Origin: a virus
Direction: 5' to 3' (one strand)
Length of the DNA: 21,400 nucleotides
Virus record (IMG/VR): IMGVR_UViG_3300021559_000175
Coordinates: 1-21,400 of that record
The notes beneath the pieces were generated by a model that saw only the letters and a list, made by a program, of their open reading frames with translations, did no database searches and was not told the DNA's origin. Position numbers and translations under genes: made by a program. Every line of letters begins with the position of its first letter. Within the stretch, counting starts at the first letter, position 1. Shown in pieces: positions 1,867 through 21,400 of this stretch.

Positions 1867-2073
1867 TCAAAGCTGTGGATAACTCTGTGGATTGTGGCTG
1901 AGCGAGAGGGGAGAGCGCTTGGGCCGTCGATACACAGCATCGCCTGACGGGAAGATGCAGCCCTGGTGCGTGTAGATGATGTGCTCGTGGATGATGGTCG
2001 CTGGCGGCTCATCGCGCTTGTTGAACTCCAGCTCTGCCAGCTTCCCGTCACGCTGGACGATGACGAGCTTCAT
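1867..2073 (-). CDS. Small hypothetical protein, 68 aa
   Basis: It begins MKLVIVQRDGKLAELEF at 2073, with AGGGG about 11 nt upstream and a 26-bp overlap with the preceding membrane-protein gene. The first half looks like two short beta strands; the middle (TIIHEHIIYTH) is His/Ile-rich and could bind metal, but there is only one cysteine and no recognisable motif. The C-terminal 20 residues are Pro/Ser/Gln-rich. The last codons contain two DnaA-box-like sequences, so the DNA may have a second role here. The downstream hairpin at 1795-1832 is a likely terminator. Family not recognised. Confidence 0.6.
   Translation of the reverse strand: MKLVIVQRDGKLAELEFNKRDEPPATIIHEHIIYTHQGCIFPSGDAVYRRPKRSPLSLSHNPQSYPQL
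1874..1894. promoter_or_regulatory. Two DnaA-box-like sites
   Basis: TGTGGATAA (1874-1882) is a perfect match, on the reverse strand, to the DnaA consensus TTATNCACA. TGTGGATTG (1886-1894) is a weaker copy 12 bp away. They lie inside the 3' end of the 68-aa gene. Binding is inferred. Confidence 0.4.
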
Positions 2074-2272
2074 TGCAGGCGAGCCCCTGTTCCCTGGCGC
2101 GCTTCGGGCCTTCGGTCTCGATATGGTCGATGGTCGCGCGAAGGTCGATGAGTTTCGCCATCGCAAGAAGCGCGTTGCGCAGATGATCGATGCGCTTGCC
2201 CATGAAGTAGAGCGTGGCCCAGTTGGCGGCGACGGCCACAAACAAGGCCCAGAACCCGAATTCATCCGTCAT
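2048..2272 (-). CDS. Small single-pass membrane protein, 74 aa
   Basis: The start is MTDEFGFWALF at 2272, supported by GGGGA about 7 nt upstream; a longer frame to 2332 lacks a site. Residues 5-24 form one hydrophobic segment (FWALFVAVAANWATLYFMG), followed by a charged helix (about 25-50) that looks like a coiled coil facing the cytoplasm. Small phage proteins with this plan include holin accessory, spanin-like and superinfection-exclusion proteins, but nothing here decides between them. The next gene overlaps its 3' end by 26 bp. It is divergent from the HTH gene at 2354 across an 81-bp spacer. Confidence 0.65.
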   Translation of the reverse strand: MTDEFGFWALFVAVAANWATLYFMGKRIDHLRNALLAMAKLIDLRATIDHIETEGPKRAREQGLACNEARHRPA

Positions 2273-2284
2273 CGCGATTCCCCG

Positions 2285-2313
2285 TTGCCAAACTCGCTTG
2301 GTCGGGTCTATAG
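2285..2313 (+). promoter_or_regulatory. Weak candidate promoter for the HTH gene
   Basis: TTGCCA (2285-2290), a 17-nt spacer and CTATAG (2308-2313) lie in the 81-bp gap between divergent genes. TATAG read on the other strand (CTATAGAC) could also serve the leftward gene. Low certainty. Confidence 0.3.
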
Positions 2314-2353
2314 CAGAAATCTCCTGCATCACAGAGAGGCTTGCTCACCACGA

Positions 2354-2740
2354 ATGAGCCAGTGGTTCAAACCGATCAGCGCCATCGCGTTCGAGGCCTT
2401 CAAGGTCTACCTCAAGGAATTCTTTGAGGCTTGCCCGGAATGGACGAGAGCGTCATTATTGCGCTCGGCGAAGATGGACCCAGGCTTCATCCGCAGAGTC
2501 GAGCGGGGGCAAGGCTACAATGTGAAGAGCCTCGACCGGCTGTTGCGGTTCATGGGCCGCGCCGTCAGCGGCAAGGTGCAAATGGCGGCGGCCCCAAAAC
2601 AAGTGCATCGAAAGGGCAATGGGCATGAACGATATGGCTCGAAGCGAGGACCTGGGCGATCTGCCTCCAGCAGCGGCGCCGTCCAAGGGCAAGCGCGGCG
2701 CCGGCAAGGCAAAGGCGAAGAAACCCGCCAAGGCCGCTAA
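2354..2740 (+). CDS. Small HTH (Cro/CI-like) DNA-binding protein
   Basis: A 128-aa frame starting MSQWFKPISAI at 2354. Residues about 33-68 (ASLLRSAKMDPGFIRRVERG followed by SLDRLLRFMG) have the spacing of a Cro/CI-type helix-turn-helix: a helix, a turn at MDPG, a recognition helix FIRRVERG and a closing helix. The tail from about residue 85 is Arg/Gly/Ser/Gln-rich and overlaps the next gene by 116 bp in another frame, so it is shaped by the overlapping gene and may be disordered. A GAGAGG sequence lies about 15 nt upstream, farther than ideal. It may be a transcriptional regulator of the divergent 2272/2354 pair or of the palindrome-bearing promoters; that link is only positional. Confidence 0.6.
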   Translation: MSQWFKPISAIAFEAFKVYLKEFFEACPEWTRASLLRSAKMDPGFIRRVERGQGYNVKSLDRLLRFMGRAVSGKVQMAAAPKQVHRKGNGHERYGSKRGPGRSASSSGAVQGQARRRQGKGEETRQGR

Positions 2741-3344
2741 GGCGAAGGAAGCCAAGGCCCCTTCGAAAAGGTCGACGAAGACCACGACCGAGGTGGTGGC
2801 CGAGTTCGAGCAGGACCAGCGCGTGCAGGCGCGCGAGGGCCGCAACACGCAAGGGATCGAGGGGCGCGAGAATTCGATCCGGGCCTTCATCGTCGACTGG
2901 CGCGGTCTCATCGGCGACAAGAACAAGATCATCTCGAAGATGGGCGTGCGCGCCGCCGATGCGAAGAATGCAGGCGTTCCGGTGAAGCTCGTCAAACAGC
3001 TCCTGAAAGAGCTGGACAAGCCGGAAGAGGCAGCGACCATGCAGAATATCATGAACCAGCTGCGCGGCCTGGTCTCTCTCCCGCATGGTGAGCCGATCGA
3101 CGACATGTCCACCTATGAGGGCGACGACACCGCCGATGCGCGTGCCTACAAGGCAGGCCGCATGCATGTGTGGCGCGGCGGTCGCTCGCAGGACAATCCG
3201 TATCACGGCGACGTGAAGCGCGGCCAGGAATGGTTGCGCGGGTTCAATGACGCCTATGCCGAGGCCGAGGCGTCGTCCTCTGCTCACGCCATGAAAAAGC
3301 TCCACGCGCTCGCTACCGAGGCTGCAAAGTCCGCGACTGCGTAG
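2625..3344 (+). CDS. Ala/Lys-rich protein with GapR-like region and Rmf/CrpP-like C-terminal domain
   Basis: The start is MNDMARSEDL at 2625, because AAGGG lies 8 nt upstream; the ATG at 2619 is too close to it. The 239-aa protein has a low-complexity Ala/Lys/Pro tail (residues 15-50), likely to bind nucleic acid. A helical region (about 80-135, with IRAFIVDWRGLI and later GVPVKLVKQLLKEL) resembles the pattern of GapR/DUF2312 DNA-binding proteins. A C-terminal segment (about 172-212, with AYKAGRMHVWRGG, NPYH and WLRGFNDA) fits the ribosome-modulation-factor/CrpP family well. Rmf dimerises ribosomes; some phage and plasmid Rmf-like proteins act otherwise, so the job here is open. An intrinsic terminator follows at 3438. 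Confidence 0.75.
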   Translation: MNDMARSEDLGDLPPAAAPSKGKRGAGKAKAKKPAKAAKAKEAKAPSKRSTKTTTEVVAEFEQDQRVQAREGRNTQGIEGRENSIRAFIVDWRGLIGDKNKIISKMGVRAADAKNAGVPVKLVKQLLKELDKPEEAATMQNIMNQLRGLVSLPHGEPIDDMSTYEGDDTADARAYKAGRMHVWRGGRSQDNPYHGDVKRGQEWLRGFNDAYAEAEASSSAHAMKKLHALATEAAKSATA

Positions 3345-4597: not shown

Positions 4598-4724
4598 TCG
4601 GCGCGCCCAGGTCGAGCCGCACTTCGACGAGACGATCGCCCGCGTGAAGTCGACGCTCATGGCGAAGTATGATCCCGTCAGCGGTAAGCGCCGCTCGACC
4701 GAACGGATCATTCTCAGCTCATGA
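4449..4724 (+). CDS. Hypothetical helical protein, 91 aa
   Basis: The start is MSEIVRTALPG at 4449, with GGAGAG about 7 nt upstream; the ATG at 4437 has no such site. Predicted mostly helical (HTLMKAIIREARGM, then SDVINATLSVMLEAFF), with a basic C-terminus. Phage helicase-loader-like and small regulatory proteins can look like this, and it lies just before dnaB, but there is no motif to support a loader. It is separated from dnaB by an 87-bp spacer with a DnaA-box-like site and a promoter, so the helicase may be expressed independently. Confidence 0.65.
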   Translation: MSEIVRTALPGTAAHTLMKAIIREARGMDQSDVINATLSVMLEAFFQKHNRRAQVEPHFDETIARVKSTLMAKYDPVSGKRRSTERIILSS

Positions 4725-4737
4725 CCGAGAAAAAAGC

Positions 4738-4746
4738 TGTGGACAA
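4738..4746. promoter_or_regulatory. DnaA-box-like site upstream of dnaB
   Basis: TGTGGACAA, one mismatch from the DnaA consensus, in the same AAGCTGTGGA context as the perfect copy at 1874. It lies 13 bp upstream of the predicted dnaB -35. Confidence 0.3.
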
Positions 4747-4759
4747 GTAGCGGCTTTCA

Positions 4760-4787
4760 TTGAGGCCAGCGCGCATCGGCCTACGGT
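4760..4787 (+). promoter_or_regulatory. Putative dnaB promoter (TTGAGG-N16-TACGGT)
   Basis: TTGAGG (4760-4765), 16 nt, then TACGGT (4782-4787), 24 bp before the dnaB ATG. The same hexamers and spacing (TTGAAG-N16-TACGGT) occur at 17864 before the NusG-like gene, which supports both. Confidence 0.5.
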
Positions 4788-4811
4788 GGGGTCTCCAGTC
4801 CAGGCGGCCCC

Positions 4812-7289
4812 ATGTCCAATCGCAAACGAGAGGCGGCATCGACCGCCGACATGAATATTCCGGCCGAGCAATCGCTCCTCGGCTGCGTGCTGCGGCGCGA
4901 CCAGGTGTTCTTCGAGGTCCACAACGATCTTGAGCCCGCAGACTTCGCCGATCCCCGCCATCAACTGATCTGGAAGACGATCGAGAAGATCGCCAGCCGG
5001 GCGCAAGGACGCTTCGATGCGGCGACCGTCGCGGACTTCCTGCAAGGGACAGACGAGAGCGTGCCTCGCGACTATCTCGACGCTCTCGCCGACGCCGTCT
5101 CCGATCCCTCGGCTATCCAGCAATACGTCCGCACCGTGGTCGACCTCTCGCGCCAGCGTGCCATGGTCCAGGCGATGCAGGACGGGATCACCAGGCTTCG
5201 CATGCGGGCTCCCGACGAGGCGCTTAACGAAGTTGTCGACGAGATCAATGGCAATGTGCTCGACGCAGGTCGCGCGGATTCATCGACCCAAAAGACCCTC
5301 GGTGAATTCGCCGAGCTGAGCTACCGGCGCATAGAGGCTGTGCGCTTCGGCCACACCAAGAGCGTCAATCTCAGCTGGGGCCTGTCCGCCATGGATGAGG
5401 CATGCGGCCCGGCAATCCCCGGACATCTGCATGTCATCGGTGGTCGGCCGGAAATGGGCAAGGCATTAAGCCTCTGCGCTCGGGTGCTCTTGGCTGATGG
5501 CCAATGGAAGGCAATGGGCGAACTGATGCTTGGCGACCGCCTCGCATCGATTGACGGCGCAGCATCCCGCATATCGGGAATTTTCCCGCGAGGGAGACGA
5601 CAAGTTTTCAATGTTCGGTTCCGTGACGGAAGGACAACGCAGGCATGCGGTGAACATCTGTGGCGCGTTCATCATCGCCATTGGGACGAGCCGCGCATAC
5701 TGACGACGGACGCTGTCGCCAGCTTGCTACAAAGAAAGCGCTATCAGCGACGCCTCTATATCGATCTAGTCAGCGGCCACTTCGGCGATCCTAAGTTGCA
5801 GTTACCGATCGATCCCTATGTTCTAGGGTGTTTGCTAGGGCACAGCTCGTTTAGAGAAAGCTCATTGAGGATAGGGTCCGTTGACCATGAAGTTATCGAG
5901 AGGATGCAAGCGAGAACAGGCGAGGCCAAAATAAGCGCTACTGCGGGAGACCGCCATGTTTATTCCATCAGATCCTCAGTTCCCGGTCCGCCGATTAACT
6001 GGCTTATGGATGCCCTTGCGCGCATGGGTTTGGAGGGCAAGCGGTGTGACGAGAAATTCGTTCCCGACATCTATCTTCAGGCTGATCGCCAGAGCCGCCT
6101 TGAACTCCTGCGAGGGCTCATGGATACGGACGGTCACGCCTCTTACGGCGCCGTCGAATTCAGCTCGACCAGCGAGAGACTGGCTTTGGATGTGCAATCG
6201 CTGGCGCGATCCCTTGGTGCCGTAGCCCGGATCGAGCGCAGAAAGACGCGGTGTTTCTACAAAGGTGAGATGCGCGGACAGGATTCCTTCCGCTGCCGTA
6301 TTAGGCACGAGCAGGCCCAGGACTTCTTCACCCTTCCGCGCAAGATGGCCGGTGCGACTCGGGTCGGTCACAACACAGTGACACTTACCTTTGACAGCAT
6401 CGAGCCTGTCGGTATCCGCGAAACGCGCTGTATTGCGGTTACACATCCTTCCAGTCTGTATGTGACGGACGGATACATAGTCACGCACAACACGGCGCTC
6501 GCGACCACCATCGCCCTCGCCCTTGGACGCCAGGCACCGGGCGGCATCATTCAGCTGGAAATGCGCGGCGAGGCCGTGGCCGATCGCTCTCTCTCCCATC
6601 TGACCGATATCCCGGCCTGGAAGATCACACGCAACGAGGCGCACAACTCCGGTTATCTGGAGAAATATGCCGATGCAATCGCCGAGCTGCACCGGCTGCC
6701 GATCCGGGTAGAGGCGAGGCCAGGGCTCACCACCGCGCAGATCAGGGCGAAGTGCATCGGCATGAAGCGCCGCTATGGATGCGTCTGGTTCATCTTCGAC
6801 CATATCCAGATCGTGCAGGCCGCGATGCGCCGCGCTGATCCGAGCGACACGATCGACGAGTTCTGCCGCACCACGGCCGCTCTCGCGAAAGAGCTGGACG
6901 CGGTGATGATCGCGCTCAGCCAGGTCAATTCGAAGAACCGCGATCGGGACAATGACCGGCCGCAGCCGCGCGACCTCATGTATTACAACTCGATCGAGCC
7001 GCACGCGGACGTGATCGCGTTTCCCTACCGACCGGAAGTGGCGCTGCGGGAACGCAGGCCTCCAGAGCCGATGAAGGACGATACCAAGGCCGAGAACCTA
7101 TACTTCGACTGGCAACAGCGCATGGAGGCCGCGAAGGACAAGGCCGAGATCATCTGCGGCAAGAACCGCCATGGCCCATCCGGCGAATTCCGACCGTGCC
7201 TCTGGGATGGTCCCACCATGCGCTTCAAGCCGCTCGAAAGCGCGCTGCGCAGCGCCGACGATAACCAAGCCTATCTTCCGGAGATGTGA
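4812..7289 (+). CDS. dnaB: Replicative DNA helicase, DnaB family, interrupted by an intein
   Basis: An 825-aa precursor. The first 110 residues are the DnaB N-terminal helical domain (IPAEQSLLGCVLRR), followed by the linker and the RecA-like motor. The Walker A motif GGRPEMGK-T is split after Lys217 by a 343-aa intein; extein sequence resumes at Thr561. After it come the Glu of LEM (583), Walker B with Asp663 (VWFIFDHIQIV), SQVN (703-706) and a C-terminal KNRHGPSGEF segment, all usual for DnaB. Without the intein the helicase is 482 aa, the normal length. It unwinds DNA at the phage fork as a hexamer. The ATG at 4812 follows a good promoter match; a second Met lies at residue 14. The stop overlaps the start region of the next helicase. 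Without splicing the ATP site cannot form. Confidence 0.95.
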   Translation: MSNRKREAASTADMNIPAEQSLLGCVLRRDQVFFEVHNDLEPADFADPRHQLIWKTIEKIASRAQGRFDAATVADFLQGTDESVPRDYLDALADAVSDPSAIQQYVRTVVDLSRQRAMVQAMQDGITRLRMRAPDEALNEVVDEINGNVLDAGRADSSTQKTLGEFAELSYRRIEAVRFGHTKSVNLSWGLSAMDEACGPAIPGHLHVIGGRPEMGKALSLCARVLLADGQWKAMGELMLGDRLASIDGAASRISGIFPRGRRQVFNVRFRDGRTTQACGEHLWRVHHRHWDEPRILTTDAVASLLQRKRYQRRLYIDLVSGHFGDPKLQLPIDPYVLGCLLGHSSFRESSLRIGSVDHEVIERMQARTGEAKISATAGDRHVYSIRSSVPGPPINWLMDALARMGLEGKRCDEKFVPDIYLQADRQSRLELLRGLMDTDGHASYGAVEFSSTSERLALDVQSLARSLGAVARIERRKTRCFYKGEMRGQDSFRCRIRHEQAQDFFTLPRKMAGATRVGHNTVTLTFDSIEPVGIRETRCIAVTHPSSLYVTDGYIVTHNTALATTIALALGRQAPGGIIQLEMRGEAVADRSLSHLTDIPAWKITRNEAHNSGYLEKYADAIAELHRLPIRVEARPGLTTAQIRAKCIGMKRRYGCVWFIFDHIQIVQAAMRRADPSDTIDEFCRTTAALAKELDAVMIALSQVNSKNRDRDNDRPQPRDLMYYNSIEPHADVIAFPYRPEVALRERRPPEPMKDDTKAENLYFDWQQRMEAAKDKAEIICGKNRHGPSGEFRPCLWDGPTMRFKPLESALRSADDNQAYLPEM
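5463..6491 (+). mobile_element. Intein in the DnaB P-loop, probably class 3, with degenerate LAGLIDADG endonuclease
   Basis: Residues 218-560 of the precursor. It begins with Ala (ALSLCARVLLADG), not Cys or Ser, and ends THN before the +1 Thr. The class 3 signature (Trp, Cys, Thr) can be placed: W284 in GEHLW of block B, C540 in TRCIAV of block F, and T558 beside the final His-Asn. In class 3 inteins, known from mycobacteriophage DnaB, the block F Cys attacks first. A LAGLIDADG endonuclease lies between: the second motif LLRGLMDTDG (432-441) keeps its acid, but the first, VLGCLLGHSS (337-346), has His/Ser where Asp/Gly is usual. The DNA is visibly richer in A/T and rarer codons than its flanks, which suggests acquisition by transfer. 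Confidence 0.85.
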
Positions 7290-13447: not shown

Positions 13448-14110
13448 TTACGCTGCGACCTTCTCCCTTCTCCGCTTCACGGGCACAGGCGCCGAGTGCC
13501 ATGCTGGCGCCTCGGCATTGGCATGCCCGCGAATGGGCATGAGGACGCCGATCGTGTAGGGGCCGCCGGCTGATTCGGGGAAGGTGACGAGCGCGGCATC
13601 GTCTCCATTCGGGGCGATGTAGGTCTTGCCCATGCACCCGTTCATGTGGCCGAGCTTGCGCGCCACCTGGTTGAAGCTCGCTACATAGTCGCCGTCGAAG
13701 TAGGCTCGTTTGAGGTTGACCTCGCGCGGCATGACGCGGCGCCAGTCCGGGAACGTGCCGTCGATCGGGGCGAAGTTGTGCATGTCACCCCACAGGAAGA
13801 GGCTGAGCTGATCGTCACCGCGTCGAGAGAGACGCGCGTCATCGCCAGTCTCGCGCGTCTTGAGCTTGAAGTGCCGGCACGACAGCGTCGGGATGATGAA
13901 CGTGCCGGTGAGCGTGTTGCGCTCGTCCTTCTCGCCGAGCGGAGCGTAGTGCGCCACGAGGCGATGCCCATCGGTCGCGACGTAGATGGTCGCGTCCTCG
14001 GTGATCTCAAGGCAGACGCCGCAGAGATAGTGGCGCGTCACGGTCTCGCTGCTCGCCACGAGCGAGACGGCCGCGAGCGCGCGCAGATTGATGCGTGCTT
14101 CATCAGGCAT
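13448..14110 (-). CDS. DNA polymerase III beta-subunit-like sliding clamp, shortened
   Basis: A 220-aa protein with GGAGG about 9 nt before the ATG at 14110. ATDGHRLVAHY (45-55) matches the conserved TDGxRL segment of bacterial beta clamps; PIDGTFPDWRRVMP (115-128) matches the clamp's FPDYxRVxP; TIGVLMPIR (186-194) matches the C-terminal MPMR. A full clamp has three domains and about 370 aa; at 220 aa only about two can be present, so it would need more subunits per ring or may act as a trimer, as T4 gp45 and PCNA do. It would tether a polymerase to phage DNA, yet no polymerase gene lies in the window. Confidence 0.75.
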   Translation of the reverse strand: MPDEARINLRALAAVSLVASSETVTRHYLCGVCLEITEDATIYVATDGHRLVAHYAPLGEKDERNTLTGTFIIPTLSCRHFKLKTRETGDDARLSRRGDDQLSLFLWGDMHNFAPIDGTFPDWRRVMPREVNLKRAYFDGDYVASFNQVARKLGHMNGCMGKTYIAPNGDDAALVTFPESAGGPYTIGVLMPIRGHANAEAPAWHSAPVPVKRRREKVAA

Positions 14111-14177: not shown

Positions 14178-14663
14178 TCAGAGCGAGCAGTAGAGCGGTT
14201 CGTTCAACTCTATGGAGCGCTTCAAGAGAGCGATGAGCCTGGCGTGGTCGCCCTGGTAGCCCTTGAGCCATTCCTCGAATGGGTCTTGCGAGGTGTGGCC
14301 TTCAAGACGCCAGCGTTCGAGGCGCGCTTTCACGGCTTCGGCTGTCACCGGCTTTGCTTCCAGCATCGCGATGAATTCGTGCGCCTTGGGGATCGGCAGG
14401 AAGCCATCGTCGAGCATCGGGACGACGTCCTGCCACCATGAGAAGCCGATCAGGCTCGCGAGGTTGCCGCCGTTGTAGGCGTCGCGGAAGTAGCCCCTGC
14501 TCCGCATGTGCGTGAAGGCCGCGTCGACTTCCTTTTGTGCCTCCCTGGCCTGCTCGCTGTCGCGCGGGAGGCCATCGCGCTTGCTGACGGCCGCCTCGAA
14601 TATCGGCTGCCACTGTTTCAGGTGAGGCTCGTATTCGCTGTTCAGATAGATATCGGCTCCCAT
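14178..14663 (-). CDS. Conserved phage hypothetical protein, 161 aa
   Basis: The start is MGADIYLNSEYEP at 14663 with AGGAGA about 6 nt upstream; the longer frame to 14726 is rejected. The opening M-G-A-D-I-Y-L followed by a polar segment is characteristic of a family often annotated as hypothetical in phages. The protein is rich in Trp/Tyr (SWWQDVVPMLDDGF in the middle) and helical at the C-terminus (EEWLKGYQGDHARLIALL). No catalytic motif is recognised. Confidence 0.75.
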   Translation of the reverse strand: MGADIYLNSEYEPHLKQWQPIFEAAVSKRDGLPRDSEQAREAQKEVDAAFTHMRSRGYFRDAYNGGNLASLIGFSWWQDVVPMLDDGFLPIPKAHEFIAMLEAKPVTAEAVKARLERWRLEGHTSQDPFEEWLKGYQGDHARLIALLKRSIELNEPLYCSL

Positions 14664-14688
14664 GTGAATCTCCTGTCGGTGATGGGAA

Positions 14689-14714
14689 CCGGCCACGCAT
14701 GAGCGCGAGGCCGG
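14689..14714. other. Intergenic GC hairpin
   Basis: CCGGCC and GGCCGG around a 14-nt loop in the gap before the gene starting at 14663. Similar in base content and position to the hairpin at 14144. Confidence 0.4.
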
Positions 14715-14722
14715 CAGGCGTA

Positions 14723-15064
14723 TCAATGGCCGTGGTGCCAGGTCTTCCCGCCATCATGGCTGTGATGGCCGTGGGCGAGCGCCTTACGGTCGACAGAGCG
14801 GCCGGCAAGCTGCTCGGCCCTGGCGATAGCGGCCTTGGCCAGCGCCGAGCCTGTGACCATCAGGCGGCGATAGGCGCAGGAGTCGGTGACGCCGTCGCGA
14901 TCCTCGTCGGGGAGGCCAACGAAGGTGATGGCGCCTTGCGGGCCGACCTTGGGTTTGATGGTGCCGCTGGCGAGGCCCTTGGAGATGCGCTCGACCGCAG
15001 CACGCACTTCACTGGCGCGCTGTTGGATCGTCTGGCGCGGCTTAAGTCTGGTGTCGCAGGGCAT
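14723..15064 (-). CDS. His-rich conserved protein in the Ycf46-like cassette, 113 aa
   Basis: It starts MPCDTRLKPRQTIQQRA at 15064, four bases after the stop of the 267-aa gene. The middle (IKPKVGPQGAITFVG, then DGVTDSCAYRRLM) reads as a small beta domain, and the end HGHHSHDGGKTWHHGH is a likely metal-binding tail. MPCDT is a recurrent N-terminus in a family I associate with prophage regions. Ycf46 ATPases elsewhere travel with small DUF1257 and DUF2997 proteins; the central beta pattern is faintly like DUF2997, but I would not assign it. Confidence 0.7.
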   Translation of the reverse strand: MPCDTRLKPRQTIQQRASEVRAAVERISKGLASGTIKPKVGPQGAITFVGLPDEDRDGVTDSCAYRRLMVTGSALAKAAIARAEQLAGRSVDRKALAHGHHSHDGGKTWHHGH

Positions 15065-15067
15065 GGC

Positions 15068-15871
15068 TCAATCTCCCAATTCGATGGCAGGCGCGATGGC
15101 GCTCACGCCCATGGCGAAGTCGTCGTCATAGCCCTCTGGCACGAGGTCGAGCCCGCGCCCGCTCTCGGCGACCGGGGCCTGAACCTCGGTTGCCTCTCCG
15201 ATATCGAGGAAGGCGGTGCGCGCCTCGGTGATCTTGCGGATCGCGGCCGTGTCGATCTCCTGTGCCGCCTGCTCGCCGGCCTTGACGATTTGCTTGGCGC
15301 TGTTGCGCGCCGCGTCGATCGCGATCTGGATGCGCGCCTGGGCATCGGGGGAGAGCATTTCCCCCAGGCCCTTGGCCCTCGATGCCGCGTCGCGCACCAC
15401 CTTGACGTCGAGCTTGGCGATGCCGTCCGCCATGTCCGAGAGCAAGTCGCGGACTTCCGAGTTGATGGCCTTGACCGCCTCGACGTCGTCGGGGGCGATG
15501 CGGCCGGTCATCACGTAGCAGCTCACGCGGGTGAGCTTGGCCGTGGCGTTGAAGGTATCGGCCACGCGCCGCGCTTCCGCGATGGCGCGCTCCAGGTTCT
15601 CGGCTTCCGCTTCCGGGCAGAGCAGCCCGAAGGCCGAGTGAGCGCACACGCTGGTGATGATCGTCCTGATCTTCGAGCGCGCCTTGGTTGCCGCTTCGTG
15701 CTCGACGGGATCGGCGATTACCCGCTCCGTCTCCCATTTGGCGCGCTCGGCCCCGTCATCGGTGACGTGGAGGGCTTCGACTTCGACGGTGCGATAGTTG
15801 ACGTTGCCGCGCAGGCCCGTCTTCAAGCTGACGAGCAGGCCGGGGCGAAGGGTGCTGGTGGAAATGGTCAC
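15068..15871 (-). CDS. Helical companion protein of the Ycf46-like ATPase, 267 aa
   Basis: GTG start at 15871, with AGGAGA about 8 nt upstream. The N-terminal 60 residues (TLRPGLLVSLKTGLRGNVNY and on) look like a beta domain; the rest is Ala-rich helix, probably coiled coil, with regular charged repeats (KINS/VRDLLSDMADGIAKLD and on). Residues about 165-215 (MLSPDAQARIQIAIDAARNS) may be a further bundle. I have seen close relatives annotated as hypothetical in phage genomes next to AAA+ ATPases, so it is probably a substrate adaptor or scaffold for the ATPase, but this is inference. Confidence 0.7.
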   Translation of the reverse strand: MTISTSTLRPGLLVSLKTGLRGNVNYRTVEVEALHVTDDGAERAKWETERVIADPVEHEAATKARSKIRTIITSVCAHSAFGLLCPEAEAENLERAIAEARRVADTFNATAKLTRVSCYVMTGRIAPDDVEAVKAINSEVRDLLSDMADGIAKLDVKVVRDAASRAKGLGEMLSPDAQARIQIAIDAARNSAKQIVKAGEQAAQEIDTAAIRKITEARTAFLDIGEATEVQAPVAESGRGLDLVPEGYDDDFAMGVSAIAPAIELGD

Positions 15872-15900
15872 GATGGTTCTCCTGTCGGGGTTCTGGATGA

Positions 15901-17487
15901 TCAGAGGTCAAGGCTGCCGCGAGCCAAGCCGGTCTTGGCCTCGGTGGTCTCCGTCACGGCCGTCGCCGGCCGGGCACGTCCTTCCGCCCACTTGCGCAGG
16001 CCGCCGATTTTCTCGGCCGAGGTCTTGCTGAGCGGGACTACGGTCGTCGCCGCCGCGAGCAAATCCTCCGTGGTGATCTCGCGCTCGCCATCCGCGAAGG
16101 CGGTGAAGAGCGCGTCGGGCACGATCGCTGCGATCTCGGCCCCGGTGAAGCCGGCGCAGACGGTCGCCACCTTGCGGTGGAGGATCGTCTCGACGCCGCG
16201 TCTGTGAGCCTTGAGCGTCGCCTGGAGGATCGCTGCGCGCTCATCCTCCGTGGGGAGGTCGACCCACCACACTTCGTCGAAGCGGCCTTTGCGAAGCAGC
16301 TCCGGTGGCAGGCTCGATACATCGTTCGCTGTCGCGATCACGAAGGCCTCGCCCTGACGCTCCTGCATCCAGGAGAGGATGCCGCCAAGAGCGTCGGATG
16401 AGACGCCACCATCGGCTGAGCCGCTGGTCGCGCCCTGGAGGGCCTTCTCGACCTCGTCGATCCAGACGACGCAGCGACCAATCGCCTCGATCACCCGGAA
16501 GGCCTTGCGGAGATTGCCCTCGCTCTCGCCGACGAATTTCGACTTGAGCGCGCCGAGGTCGAGCCGCAACAGGGGCACGCCCCAGGCCGTAGCAATGGCC
16601 TTGGCGGTCATGGACTTGCCGCAGCCAGGGACGCCCACGAGAAGGGCGCCCTTGGGCGCAGGAAGGCCGTAGGCGCGGGCCTTGGGGCTGTAGGCGAGGC
16701 GCCGGGAGGCGAGCCACGCCTTGAGGTTGTCCAGGCCGCCGACGCTGTCGAGCCCGCCAGGGAGCGGATCGTGCCATTCGAGCACGCGCTCGCGGGCGAT
16801 CACGCGGCGCTTCTCTTTCGCCACGGCGACCGGGTCGATGCGCCTGAACTGCACAAGGCTCTTGGCGTAGCAGGCAGCCGCCTCCTCGCCGCTCAGACCG
16901 ACCGCCGCATCGATCGCGGAATCACGGGCGCCATTGGGCGCTGCGGTCGCTTGCAGCTCCTCCGGCAGTCCGTTGATGGCGGCGTCGAGGATCGAGGCGA
17001 TCTCCTCGCGATCCGGGAGAGGCCACTCGATCACAGTCGCATGAGCCGACAGCTCCTGCGGGACATCGCCAGACGGCGAGATCACGATCACGGCCTGGGC
17101 GCGTTCCCGCTGCACGCTGGGGAGCAACCGGGCGAGGTTGCGCAGCTGGCGCAAGGTGGTGATGCCGCCAGGCCCGGACAGCCATGCCGGCAGGTCACGC
17201 ATGACCCACACGCAGCGGTCGCCGTTGTCCTTGGCGCGATCGGCGATGAGGTTGAGGGTGTCGGCAGGATCGGCCGAGCCGCCGACCGTCGAGCGCGCGC
17301 CGCCAAGCTCGGTGACGCCCTGCGCCACATCCCAGAAGCGCGCGATGTAGCCGGCCGCTCCCGCCGCCTCGAAGAGATAGCGCTCGGCCCTCGCCTCCTC
17401 GCGCGTCACGATCCAGAGCAGCGGGTTGCGGGCTCTGAGCAGCGCCGCGACATCCGCCGCGACGATCTGGCTTCTACTTTTCGTCAT
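15901..17487 (-). CDS. Ycf46-like AAA+ ATPase
   Basis: A 528-aa protein with AGGAGG about 5 nt before the ATG at 17487. It has a degenerate N-terminal ATPase-like domain (about 1-210; [27 protein letters not shown]) and one complete AAA+ module. Walker A is GVPGCGKS (285-292), Walker [10 protein letters not shown] (342-350), sensor 1 ATAND (385-389), arginine-finger segment RKGRFDEVW (399-407), then GFTGAEI as sensor 2. [13 protein letters not shown] before the P-loop and the VVPLS segment after it are characteristic of Ycf46, a chloroplast/cyanobacterial and bacterial family of uncertain role. The ATPase would remodel a protein or complex; neighbours 15068 and 14723 are its likely partners. 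Confidence 0.88.
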
Positions 17488-17863: not shown

Positions 17864-17891
17864 TTGAAGCCGCACGGAAGGCCGCTACGGT
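17864..17891 (+). promoter_or_regulatory. Putative promoter of the NusG-like gene (TTGAAG-N16-TACGGT)
   Basis: TTGAAG (17864-17869), 16 nt, then TACGGT (17886-17891), with the ATG at 17920. It shares hexamers and spacing with the dnaB promoter candidate at 4760. Confidence 0.5.
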
Positions 17892-17919
17892 GTCGGCTTT
17901 CCAGGTTCGGAGGCAGGAA

Positions 17920-18423
17920 ATGGCGGCAACATGGTGGTGCGCTGTCTATACCGATGCGCAGAAAGAGGATCAGGCAAGGGAGGGCCTGGTCGGGCTCGCC
18001 TACAATGTGTTCCTGCCGGTCGAGCGCTATTTCAGCCGGCGCCTCAAGGAAGTCCGCGAGCGTCCGCTCTTCTCGCGCTACCTCTTCGTCGGTCTGGAGG
18101 AAGGCCAGGCGTTCGGGCCTATCAAGGCAACCGAGGGCGTGCGCCAGCTCCTGACCTACGCGGACGGCGCCGGAGGCCGCAAGCCGCTCGTGGTCAAGAC
18201 CAAGGTGATCGAGGAGCTGCAACGCGCCGAATCGAATGGCGTCTTCGACAACGTGCCGGATCGGCTCAAGGCCGGTGACGAGGTCGCGGTAGACGGGCCG
18301 ATGTCCTACCTGATCGGCAAGATCAAAGGCTCCAGCAAGCGCGACCGCATGAAGGTCCTGTATTCGGTCATGGGGCGACAGATCGAGGCTGACGTGCCAC
18401 TTTCAAGTATCAAGAGAATATGA
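17920..18423 (+). CDS. NusG/RfaH-like transcription antitermination factor
   Basis: A 167-aa protein starting MAATWWCAVYTDAQKEDQAR at 17920, with GGAGG about 6 nt upstream. Residues 1-80 have the NGN-domain pattern: aromatic-rich first strand (WWCAVYT), GLAYNVFLPVERYF, then RPLFSRYLFVGLEEGQAF and TEGVRQLL. About residues 115-167 (LKAGDEVAV, then MKVLYSVMGRQIEADVPLSSI) look like a KOW domain. NusG binds the RNA-polymerase clamp and suppresses pausing; RfaH acts on operons such as LPS synthesis. Here it has its own promoter, lies divergent from the 14-gene operon, and is followed by heptose genes, so it may control phage late genes or the heptose set. Which one is inference. Confidence 0.85.
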   Translation: MAATWWCAVYTDAQKEDQAREGLVGLAYNVFLPVERYFSRRLKEVRERPLFSRYLFVGLEEGQAFGPIKATEGVRQLLTYADGAGGRKPLVVKTKVIEELQRAESNGVFDNVPDRLKAGDEVAVDGPMSYLIGKIKGSSKRDRMKVLYSVMGRQIEADVPLSSIKRI

Positions 18424-18967: not shown

Positions 18968-19564
18968 ATGACCGTAGGGACGCAGTCCGTGGGCCGCCCC
19001 ACCTTCGCCGACGATCTGAGGGCGTTCATCACGCTTCTCGACAGGTGTCATCCCCTCGCCGATCGGCTCGAAGAAGCGATCAGGGTTCTTGGCCGCGCCG
19101 TCTATGAGGGGCGACCGATTCTCATCTGCGGCAATGGCGGGTCAGCGTCGGAAGCAGAGCACATGACGGCCGAGCTGGTGGGGCGATTCCTGATCAAACG
19201 CGAGCCAATCAACGCGATCTGCCTCAATAGCAATAGCGCGATGATGACGGCCTGGGCGAACGATGTCGCCTACAAGACTATTTTCGAGCGCCAGGTGCAG
19301 GCACACGGTTCACCTGGCGCCGCGCTCGTTTGCTTCTCGACCAGCGGCGACTCAATCAACGTCGTCAAGGCAGCGCGGATGGCGCACATTCACGGAATGC
19401 CGGTGATCTCGCTCACAGGCGAAGGCGGCGGCAGACTTGCAAACGAGACGGATGTGCTTCTCTCTGTCCCGTCACGCTCGACGCCGATGATCCAGCAAGT
19501 CCACCAGCTGCTCATGCATCACATCTGCGGCGCGCTCGAAGCTTCCTTAAGCGAGGTGATATAG
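18968..19564 (+). CDS. gmhA: Phosphoheptose isomerase (sedoheptulose 7-phosphate isomerase)
   Basis: A 198-aa SIS-domain protein starting MTVGTQSVGR at 18968, with GAGGA about 5 nt upstream. CGNGGSASEAEHMTAEL (54-70) holds the substrate loop with His65 and Glu69; FSTSGDS (123-129) is the second sugar-phosphate loop; QQVHQLLMHH carries His179, the partner catalytic base. It converts sedoheptulose 7-phosphate to glycero-manno-heptose 7-phosphate, the first step to ADP-heptose for the LPS core. Length is normal. It converges with hldD and overlaps it antisense by 46 bp. Confidence 0.92.
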   Translation: MTVGTQSVGRPTFADDLRAFITLLDRCHPLADRLEEAIRVLGRAVYEGRPILICGNGGSASEAEHMTAELVGRFLIKREPINAICLNSNSAMMTAWANDVAYKTIFERQVQAHGSPGAALVCFSTSGDSINVVKAARMAHIHGMPVISLTGEGGGRLANETDVLLSVPSRSTPMIQQVHQLLMHHICGALEASLSEVI

Positions 19565-20490
19565 GCCGATACGCCGGCCCGCACGTCTCGTAAATACCGG
19601 TGATACCCGGCCAGCCAAAGCTTCGTGATGTCAGCCCGCGTGTAGTGCTGATATCGACCGCGTAGCTCCTCCGGCATATCGACCATCTCGACGCAGTCGC
19701 TCCAGGCTCTCTCGTCGGACGGGATGATGGCCGAGATGACTTTCCCAAAGCTCGTCGCCCTGCCGCTGCCGACGTTGTAGATGCCGCTCACCGGCCTCGC
19801 CTGCATCAGCCAGAGCATCACGTCGACGGCGTCGTCGACATGGACCCAGTCGCGCGTGCTATACCTGGCATTGCCGAAGAGCTTGATCTTGCCGCCCGAG
19901 CGGAACGCGTCGACCGACTTGGTGATGAAGCTCTGCATCTTGCCCTTGTGCTGCTCGCCTGGGCCGTAGACGTTGAAGAACTTCAAGCCATACCAGTGCG
20001 ACGGCACATCGCTGTCATGTGCTAATGCCTCGATCGCCACATCTGCGTTGTGCTTCGATCCGGCATATGGGTTCAGCGGCCGGAGATCATTGAGCGGTGT
20101 CGATTCGGAGAAGCCGTGCTCTCCGTCCCCGTAGGTTGAGGCCGAGGAGGCATAGACGATCGGCACATCGTGCATCCCGCACCAGCGCCAGAGCTTGATG
20201 GTGAAGTCGGTGTTCTGCCAGTAGAGCTTATTGACGTCGGTGCAGGTCGTGTCGGTGATTGCACCGAGATGGTAGACGGCGGTGATCTCGGAGGCGCGCC
20301 CATCAAGCCACGGTAAGACATCGAGCCACGACAGAAGATGATGCGCATAGCTCTTGAGCGCATTGCATCTGCCCCACATATCGCGCGGCGCCATATCTTC
20401 GACGATGGCGATCTCGTCACCAGACAGCCGCGCGAGCGCCTTCACGAGATTCGAGCCGATGAAGCCGGCGCCTCCTGTCACGATGATCAT
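19519..20490 (-). CDS. hldD: ADP-glyceromanno-heptose 6-epimerase
   Basis: A 323-aa short-chain dehydrogenase-like protein. The start is MIIVTGGAGFIGSN at 20490, with AGGA about 8 nt upstream; the frame continues to 20598 but that part belongs to hldE. TGGAGFIGS (5-13) is the NADP loop, HLGAITDTT (74-82) the family signature, SSASTYG (115-121) the Ser/Thr site and Y142-x3-K146 the catalytic pair. It inverts C6 of ADP-D-glycero-heptose, the last step of the pathway. Its ATG overlaps the true hldE stop as ATGA. Family length is about 310-330, so it appears complete. Confidence 0.93.
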   Translation of the reverse strand: MIIVTGGAGFIGSNLVKALARLSGDEIAIVEDMAPRDMWGRCNALKSYAHHLLSWLDVLPWLDGRASEITAVYHLGAITDTTCTDVNKLYWQNTDFTIKLWRWCGMHDVPIVYASSASTYGDGEHGFSESTPLNDLRPLNPYAGSKHNADVAIEALAHDSDVPSHWYGLKFFNVYGPGEQHKGKMQSFITKSVDAFRSGGKIKLFGNARYSTRDWVHVDDAVDVMLWLMQARPVSGIYNVGSGRATSFGKVISAIIPSDERAWSDCVEMVDMPEELRGRYQHYTRADITKLWLAGYHRYLRDVRAGVSAYITSLKEASSAPQM

Positions 20491-21400
20491 GCCTTGGTCC
20501 TTTCGATGATGGCGCTCGACGAGACGCCTTTGACGCTTTCCACGATGAGAACCTTCCGCCGTAGTTCGACACGAACGGCGCGCCCACGATCCGCTCATAG
20601 TCGTAGTCCGCTCCCTTCGAGAGCACGTCCGGCCGCAAGTCCATGATGAGCGGCATCGGACCCTTGTCGAAGACCACTACGAGGTCGACAGCATTGAGCG
20701 CGGTGAGCATCTTCGCCCGCGTCTCGACCCCGTTCACCGGGCGACCATCGCCCTTCAACTCCCGCACAGACTGATCAGAGTTGAGACCGACGATGAGCCG
20801 GTCGCAGTGCTTCCTTGTCTCTTCGAGCAGATGCACGTGGCCGTGGTGCAGGATGTCGAAGCAGCCGTTGGTGAAGCCGATGCGCTCGCCCTTCGCGCGC
20901 CAGCGGGCGACACGATGGGCAGCCTCGCCAACGCTGACCAGGTTCACGCCGTCGCCAAGCACATCATGCATCTCGGCCGGCGTGACGGTCGCTGTGCCGC
21001 GCTTGCCGACCACGATCCCCGCCGCGACATTTGCGATCTCGGCAGCTTCTGACGGGTCGCAGCCGGCAGCGATGGCAGAGGCGAAGACGGCGATCACCGT
21101 GTCGCCAGCGCCGGAGACGTCGAACACCTCTCGTGCGTGAGAACGAATGTGGTAATTGGCGCTGCCGAATCGAGCGACAGTCATGCCGTGCTCGGCTCGC
21201 GTGAGGAGAACATTGGCGTCGGTCAAGTTGAAGATAATCTGAGCGGCTTGGGCGGCTGCCTCATCATCATCAGCATCGACGAGGGTTGCCTCTAAGGATT
21301 CCTTACGGTTCGGCGTGATCCAATCCGCGCCCTGGTAGAAGCTGAGGTGTGAACGCTTCGGGTCGACGAAGACGAGCTGCCCCGGCCTCTTCGCTTTGAC
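20487..21400 (-). CDS. hldE: Bifunctional heptose kinase/adenylyltransferase, partial, with a one-base frame disruption
   Basis: The frame is open to the right edge. Visible kinase-domain parts are VDPKR, GADWITPNRKE, VLLTRAEHGM and VSGAGDT (PfkB signature 2, catalytic Asp). The nucleotidyltransferase domain follows with TNGCFDILHHGHV (HxGH) and LNSDQSV, through YGG. HldE phosphorylates heptose 7-phosphate at C1 and then adenylylates it. Near 20555 the straight frame leaves the family pattern (YGGRFSSWKAS and on); stepping back one base gives YGG-KVLIVESVKG-VSSSAIIERTKA and a stop at 20487-20489, overlapping hldD as ATGA. That is the expected HldE ending, so a base has been lost, misread, or is skipped by frameshifting. 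The first part of the kinase lies outside the window. Confidence 0.85.

Follow-up and report, generated by a model that had tools for sequence, protein, structure and literature searches.

Ycf46-type AAA+ ATPases persist in phages and plasmids as well as in cyanobacteria and the plastids of algae, and the locus described here raises the question of what such a motor does in a phage, and with which partners. The cassette lies in the first 21.4 kb (21,400 nucleotides, the window) of the 60.9-kb IMG/VR virus record IMGVR_UViG_3300021559_000175 (L159), a contig from a tailed phage, and its genes are on the minus strand. An earlier reading of the sequence alone, the original prediction, had described a Ycf46-like ATPase followed directly by a long helical protein (here HEL) and a small His-rich protein (here HIS), and the cassette of three tightly spaced open reading frames (ORFs) was confirmed:

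15901..17487, minus strand: Ycf46-type AAA+ ATPase, 528 amino acids
15068..15871, minus strand: HEL, 267 amino acids, GTG start
14723..15064, minus strand: HIS, 113 amino acids, small Cys/His protein (MPCDT...DxC...HSHDGGxTW)

The genes are separated by 29 and 3 nucleotides, and each start is accompanied by a Shine-Dalgarno-like stretch. The trio is a genuine conserved unit that recurs across many phage lineages, and it adds a new set of partners and a new clade to a known but uncharacterized ATPase module.

Conservation of the trio

HEL and HIS are each encoded in all 31 Corndogvirus records, always with the ATPase, and a scan of viral contigs starting from HIS returned 45 loci, nearly all with the ATPase and HEL alongside. 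An independent scan starting from the ATPase was the source of most of 34 further loci holding all three genes. Altogether, HEL and HIS occur together in 81 loci, 55 of which have non-identical HIS sequences; the possibility raised with the original prediction, that the partners never accompany the ATPase in other genomes, is contradicted by these counts. The usual gene order is ATPase-HEL-HIS, with permutation to HEL-HIS-ATPase in three loci (L016, L020 and L120) and to HIS-ATPase-HEL in two (L052 and L095). The permuted loci fall in different parts of the tree, and the linkage of the trio thus survives rearrangement. The genes flanking HEL/HIS loci are not conserved, and no convincing fourth member of the cassette was found: the Corndog relatives share a ParB-like gene, and most other recurrences resemble shadow ORFs. 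The distance matrices of the three proteins are correlated (r 0.78 for ATPase-HEL, 0.58 for HEL-HIS and 0.48 for ATPase-HIS), each value exceeding 1000 of 1000 permutations. Phage genomes are mosaic, and three unrelated genes could be ordinary neighbours by chance, but the number of non-identical loci, the linkage kept through permutations of order and the co-divergence make this explanation practically negligible; the survey already contradicts it.

Corndogvirus (mycobacteriophage cluster O) carries the orthologous trio as gp93/gp95/gp96, in the same order and with about 59%, 43% and 51% identity, on record merely as an AAA ATPase and hypothetical proteins; it differs in the small genes inserted in the block (Catdawg) and in its mycobacterial host. 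Peptide counts published for Corndog (PMC4351075) can be assigned to the HIS, HEL and ATPase orthologues, a match that rests on the coordinates and lengths in that paper and on the aligned Catdawg orthologues. For gp93, the HIS orthologue, 52 peptides came from particles purified once on CsCl, 0 from virions purified twice and 15 from infected cells, the corresponding numbers being 5, 0 and 1 for gp95 (HEL) and 0, 0 and 3 for gp96 (ATPase). All three proteins are made and none is a part of the virion, in published data that concern the orthologues and not the phage of the window. With peptide counts as a rough guide, the HIS orthologue appears to exceed the motor in amount. Corndog-type phages of M. 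smegmatis, which carry the orthologues, offer a manipulable laboratory system. A pattern scan for HIS in 84,980 prokaryote genomes found only two contigs of metagenome-assembled genomes (MAGs), both with the whole trio and both probably phage-derived; DUF2997 was not found in 150 genomes of the order to which the Rhizobiales MAG belongs.

Two partner sets of a Ycf46-type ATPase

The ATPase matches the Pfam AAA family (E 7e-29) and, over its whole length, phrog_8638 (E 3e-174). Over ~92% of its length it aligns, at 34-38% identity, with ATPases from plasmids of cyanobacteria, Treponema and Rhodococcus. The majority of these plasmid genes adjoin DUF1257 and/or DUF2997, as had been expected of Ycf46 at the outset, the Treponema locus L062 having neither. 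The assignment to the Ycf46 type is supported because the similarity is full-length (N-domain and AAA module, in both alignment and tree) and because the relatives have this neighbourhood; it runs through the plasmid ATPases rather than through the characterized Synechocystis protein Slr0374. The original prediction was therefore right about the motor, in which both Walker motifs are intact:

Residues ~1-245, N-terminal domain; ~250-480, AAA module; then a C-terminal tail to GSLDL
16612..16635, minus strand: Walker A region GVPGCGKS (G285, G288, G290 and K291 invariant in 35 homologues)
16444..16473, minus strand: Walker B region, with WIDEVEK (D344, E345 and K348 invariant)
15904..15918, minus strand: short motif GSLDL at the extreme C-terminal end

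In a tree of 110 rows, built by a quick method, all 60 HEL/HIS-type ATPases fall in a single clade with a support of 99 in the Shimodaira-Hasegawa-like approximate likelihood ratio test (SH-aLRT). The clade holds one unexplained row, L107, from a short contig; this ATPase (L107:1785-3548) adjoins an HNH-like ORF and has neither HEL nor HIS, being either an exception or a truncation. The next branches outside are the long row of Javan368 and the ATPase of L127 (SH-aLRT about 82 for L127). Javan368, a Streptococcus satellite phage, encodes its Ycf46-like ATPase (L004:3944-5521) with none of the partners considered in this analysis.

None of the 93 HEL/HIS loci with an ATPase, a number that includes duplicates, carries DUF1257, DUF2997, DUF3150 or a radical-SAM-like gene, whereas the 53 other Ycf46 loci carry them in 41, 38, 12 and 6 cases, respectively. 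In 20 HEL/HIS records searched whole, the Pfam models of DUF1257 and DUF2997 had no match. As positive controls, the DUF2997 model recognizes phage proteins in L071, L079 and L003, the DUF1257 model matches L079 and L003 (L071 lying just below the cut-off), and the DUF3150 model matches L092, L093, L108 and L117. The ATPase thus has two partner sets that exclude each other, HEL/HIS on the one hand and DUF1257/DUF2997, sometimes joined by DUF3150, on the other. The canonical DUF1257/DUF2997 partners are also present in phages, and the expectation that a phage version means new partners fails as a general rule. In the present cassette, too, the partners are probably not entirely new, HEL being very probably and HIS perhaps a remote relative of a known partner.

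HEL matches phrog_11021 (E 8e-63), and its AlphaFold2 model, with a predicted local distance difference test score (pLDDT) of 84, has an N-terminal three-strand beta meander followed by long helices and a disordered tail. As modelled, HEL is not purely helical, and its original description as a long helical protein holds in part. In a Foldseek search of viral models, the top match after the Corndogvirus orthologue was a DUF3150-labelled phage protein (E 4.4e-4, probability 1.00), the template modelling (TM) score being only about 0.4. Profile-profile comparison by hhalign aligned HEL with DUF3150 (PF11348) N-terminus to N-terminus over 92 columns with a score of 36.3 (P 4e-4), against 26.1 (P 0.014) for the best of 72 null families, and a second, weaker C-terminal segment is colinear with the first. 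In L108, as in its relatives L096, L101, L115 and L143, a Pfam-true DUF3150 gene stands right next to Ycf46. Because of the profile-profile score, the fold match and the presence of DUF3150 in the same slot beside Ycf46, HEL is very probably a remote DUF3150 relative; formal Pfam membership failed, so HEL is not counted as a member. A relationship of HEL to DUF1257 was rejected (hhalign probability 0.1). Searches for HEL on plasmids and for plasmid-type DUF3150 in the viral scan gave no match, and no convincing relatives of solved structure were found for HEL, HIS, DUF3150 or DUF1257. In the literature searched, no paper naming DUF3150 turned up, and the three papers naming DUF1257 or DUF2997 appear not to study function.

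HIS matches phrog_11784 (E 3e-42), is modelled with a pLDDT of 86 and has C3, G44, D61, C63, G99, H101, S102, H103 and G106 as invariant residues. A single Asp-box lies near its C-terminal end:

14738..14761, minus strand: SHDGGKTW, of the form S-x-D-x-G-x-T-W

The strict form is present in 43 of 54 HIS sequences and a loose form in 52, and the match to Pfam BNR (E 0.007) is under the cut-off. The consensus comes from PMC2716378, according to which single Asp-boxes appear in several kinds of fold and frequently form hairpins supporting contacts between domains. In profile-profile comparison DUF2997 ranked first of 76, but weakly (P 0.004 vs 0.014 for the best null), and the similarity is restricted to a beta hairpin (19 columns in register) before a Cys-headed helix. 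HIS may be a remote DUF2997 relative, a clear DUF2997 identity not being established by this similarity. A fold search with HIS returned its own orthologue as the sole match.

The nearest known systems differ from the cassette in distinct ways. The Ycf46-DUF1257-DUF2997 module of cyanobacteria, plasmids, Rhizobium phage L338C and Pseudomonas phage SM1 shares a full-length homologous Ycf46, dedicated small partners, module-like inheritance and an uncharacterized biochemistry, whereas the cassette has HEL and HIS, no DUF1257 or HMM-detectable DUF2997, and a separate ATPase clade. Other phage loci combine Ycf46 with DUF3150, together with DUF1257/DUF2997 and sometimes a radical-SAM-like gene (for example, L108, L092 and L127): DUF3150 stands beside or near Ycf46 as HEL does, both proteins have hydrophobic C-terminal tails, and the L127 ATPase branches immediately outside the HEL/HIS clade. 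Pfam clearly identifies the DUF3150 of these loci, whereas HEL is detected solely by profile-profile and fold comparison, and the HEL/HIS cassette lacks DUF1257 and radical SAM. On plasmids, a DUF3150 gene sits between genes for a MoxR-type AAA+ and a vWA/NorD-like protein; an AAA+ motor is again paired with a DUF3150 protein, but the motor is of another AAA+ clade, and no vWA match was found in a scan that covered proteins of the window and 87 ORFs next to HEL/HIS loci, though not the whole 60.9-kb record. The IetAS/SgiAT-type pairs of an AAA ATPase and a subtilisin-like protease have an AAA+ module of the same broad SpoVK/Ycf46/Vps4 kind, but the similarity is confined to the AAA domain, and no Pfam match to a subtilisin-like serine protease was found in the window or among the neighbours.

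The fullest Ycf46 module seen, on one phage contig (L127:1126-6934), comprises a radical-SAM-like gene (1126-1779), DUF3150 (1931-3232), the ATPase (4665-6239) and, by eye, DUF1257-like and DUF2997-like ORFs. In 21 of 31 DUF-type loci, the ATPase is followed ~2.8 kb downstream by a member of a 121-amino acid family (L077:7783-8148 and relatives).

A shared C-terminal motif and the function of the trio

The motif at the end of the ATPase recurs in the tail of HEL:

15143..15157, minus strand: RGLDL in the HEL tail

Among ATPases of this type, 58 of 59 end in [L/I/V/M]-[D/E]-[hydrophobic], where 0.6 would be expected from shuffling the last 30 residues, and R-x-[L/I/V/M]-[D/E]-[hydrophobic] is found in 46 of 57 HEL tails (1.06 expected in shuffled tails). 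As background, 5 of 126 Catdawg proteins have the motif at the C-terminal end, a count that includes the cassette members. Within the window, the only other protein with the motif is encoded at 14178-14726 and has it in a loose form, 8 residues before the end. Similar paired tails are also seen in distant modules, for example RRIDF on the ATPase and RTLDL on the partner in L064, RTFEF and RRLEF in L063, and TLDL and MLEL in L127. The common peptide suggests that ATPase and HEL probably dock on the same surface. The HNH endonuclease gp27 of Catdawg (L157:11974-12327) ends in ...MRNLDFET, similar to these tails, and may be a client or a chance likeness.

We slightly favour, at somewhat better than even chances, the view that the trio forms one machine, an ATP-dependent remodelling or maturation chaperone of the Ycf46 type with dedicated adaptors. 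The ATPase, probably a hexamer, would remodel or mature a client protein during infection. HEL would be the adaptor or client-loading subunit, filling the slot that DUF3150 occupies beside the Ycf46 of other phages, and HIS an abundant small accessory protein in the DUF2997 slot, perhaps itself derived from DUF2997. Sharing the peptide x-L/I-D/E-L/I/F, ATPase and HEL would probably dock on one surface, perhaps HIS or the N-domain of the ATPase. As a first guess from genome position, the client would be a DNA-metabolism protein of the phage. In Synechocystis, loss of Ycf46 lowers the activity of the carbonic anhydrase EcaB, which was taken to indicate a part in the regulation of carbon fixation, and the ycf46 operon is stress-responsive (Jiang et al. 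2015, cited in PMC7496141). Several points weigh against a chaperone with these adaptors: HEL matched no Pfam model at E <= 1, DUF3150 included; the hhalign probability for HEL and DUF3150 is just ~35%; the link between HIS and DUF2997 is weak, and HIS may replace DUF2997 rather than descend from it; and the tail motif was noticed post hoc in related sequences, so that its counts overstate independence. A bolder version, which we regard as doubtful, is that phage Ycf46 ATPases and DUF3150-type partners share a docking peptide read by HIS or DUF2997, a tail-coded assembly rule that would define a new phage AAA+ family and mark same-tailed phage or host proteins as clients; the HbYX tails that proteasomal ATPases carry offer a loose parallel. 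The existence of two interchangeable sets of partners for one ATPase, the HEL-DUF3150 link and the tail motif provide testable handles on the tail binder and on the target of the motor.

A narrower role in replication, which the original prediction had named as possible, or in genome maintenance has circumstantial support; the ATPase and its adaptors would act on DNA and specifically remodel replisome, clamp or ParB-like proteins of the phage. A DNA polymerase III beta-like ORF (13448-14110, conflictingly labelled; see below) lies just downstream of the cassette on the same strand, the Catdawg block also holds beta clamp, Ku and ParB-like genes, the flanks of other loci match ParB-like, ERF, endonuclease VII and replication-initiation families, and in 16 of 31 DUF-type loci a 407-amino acid gene resembling, by eye, a replication initiator lies 3-5 kb downstream. 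Phage early regions are, however, generally rich in such genes and no neighbour of this kind is conserved across HEL/HIS loci, and we consider this role rather unlikely. MoxR-vWA systems are thought to insert or repair a metal centre in a client, and the plasmid arrangement of DUF3150 between MoxR and vWA/NorD genes hints at metal or iron-sulfur cofactor maturation, with HIS as the metal-binding part. The invariant C3, D61, C63, H101 and H103 of HIS, a 4Fe-4S/radical-SAM-like protein in the Ycf46 modules of L062-L065, L127 and L135, and the clustering of the cyanobacterial DUF2997-DUF1257 pair with the ferredoxin fed7 (PMC4284462) point the same way. Against this, the radical-SAM-like gene is absent from all HEL/HIS loci and the His cluster, where metal binding is putative, coincides with the Asp-box, elsewhere mostly a structural hairpin; cofactor maturation is unlikely.

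A chaperone for the assembly of head or tail proteins has a precedent in a proposal for the MoxR-vWA pairs of some viruses (cited in PMC7824862), and the DUF-type relatives in SM1, L338C and JP1 are near lysis and tail genes. HEL/HIS cassettes, however, stand among non-structural genes, and in Corndog the trio is missing from virions purified twice, although an assembly chaperone can act without becoming part of the particle; we consider virion assembly improbable. Counter-defence, the other role proposed originally, or another form of host takeover is more improbable still: some AAA+ proteins do act in phage-host conflict, and there is a resemblance to the anti-phage ATPase IetA that is limited to the AAA module (PADLOC E 4e-22), but no anti-defence homology or other positive evidence was found, and the cassette is not patchy, being in every sequenced Corndogvirus record and kept intact as a unit in phages of many lineages.

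Other features of the window

The window is identical to the 60.9-kb record over its first 20 kb and 99.9% identical over the remaining 1.4 kb. The record also encodes a terminase, portal, head protease and major capsid protein, and the description of the locus as a phage operon was therefore correct. Positions 1-119 of the window are an exact inverted copy of a stretch within the terminase gene (L159:3398-3516), resembling a contig-end or amplification artefact. Genes for a heptose (lipopolysaccharide precursor) pathway at 18968-21226, comprising phosphoheptose isomerase, ADP-heptose epimerase and an HldE-like protein, suggest a Gram-negative host; HldE is shortened in the window and has 461 amino acids in the longer record (L159:466-1851). 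The short ORF at 13448-14110 is similar to the central domain of DNA polymerase III beta, but PHROGs label it a RusA-like resolvase. An intein-like insertion that contains a LAGLIDADG domain interrupts a DnaB-like helicase (4812-7289), and a 241-amino acid protein (2619-3344) has a C-terminal segment resembling ribosome modulation factor, under the Pfam cut-off. A NusG-like antiterminator (17890-18423) is transcribed divergently relative to the cassette.

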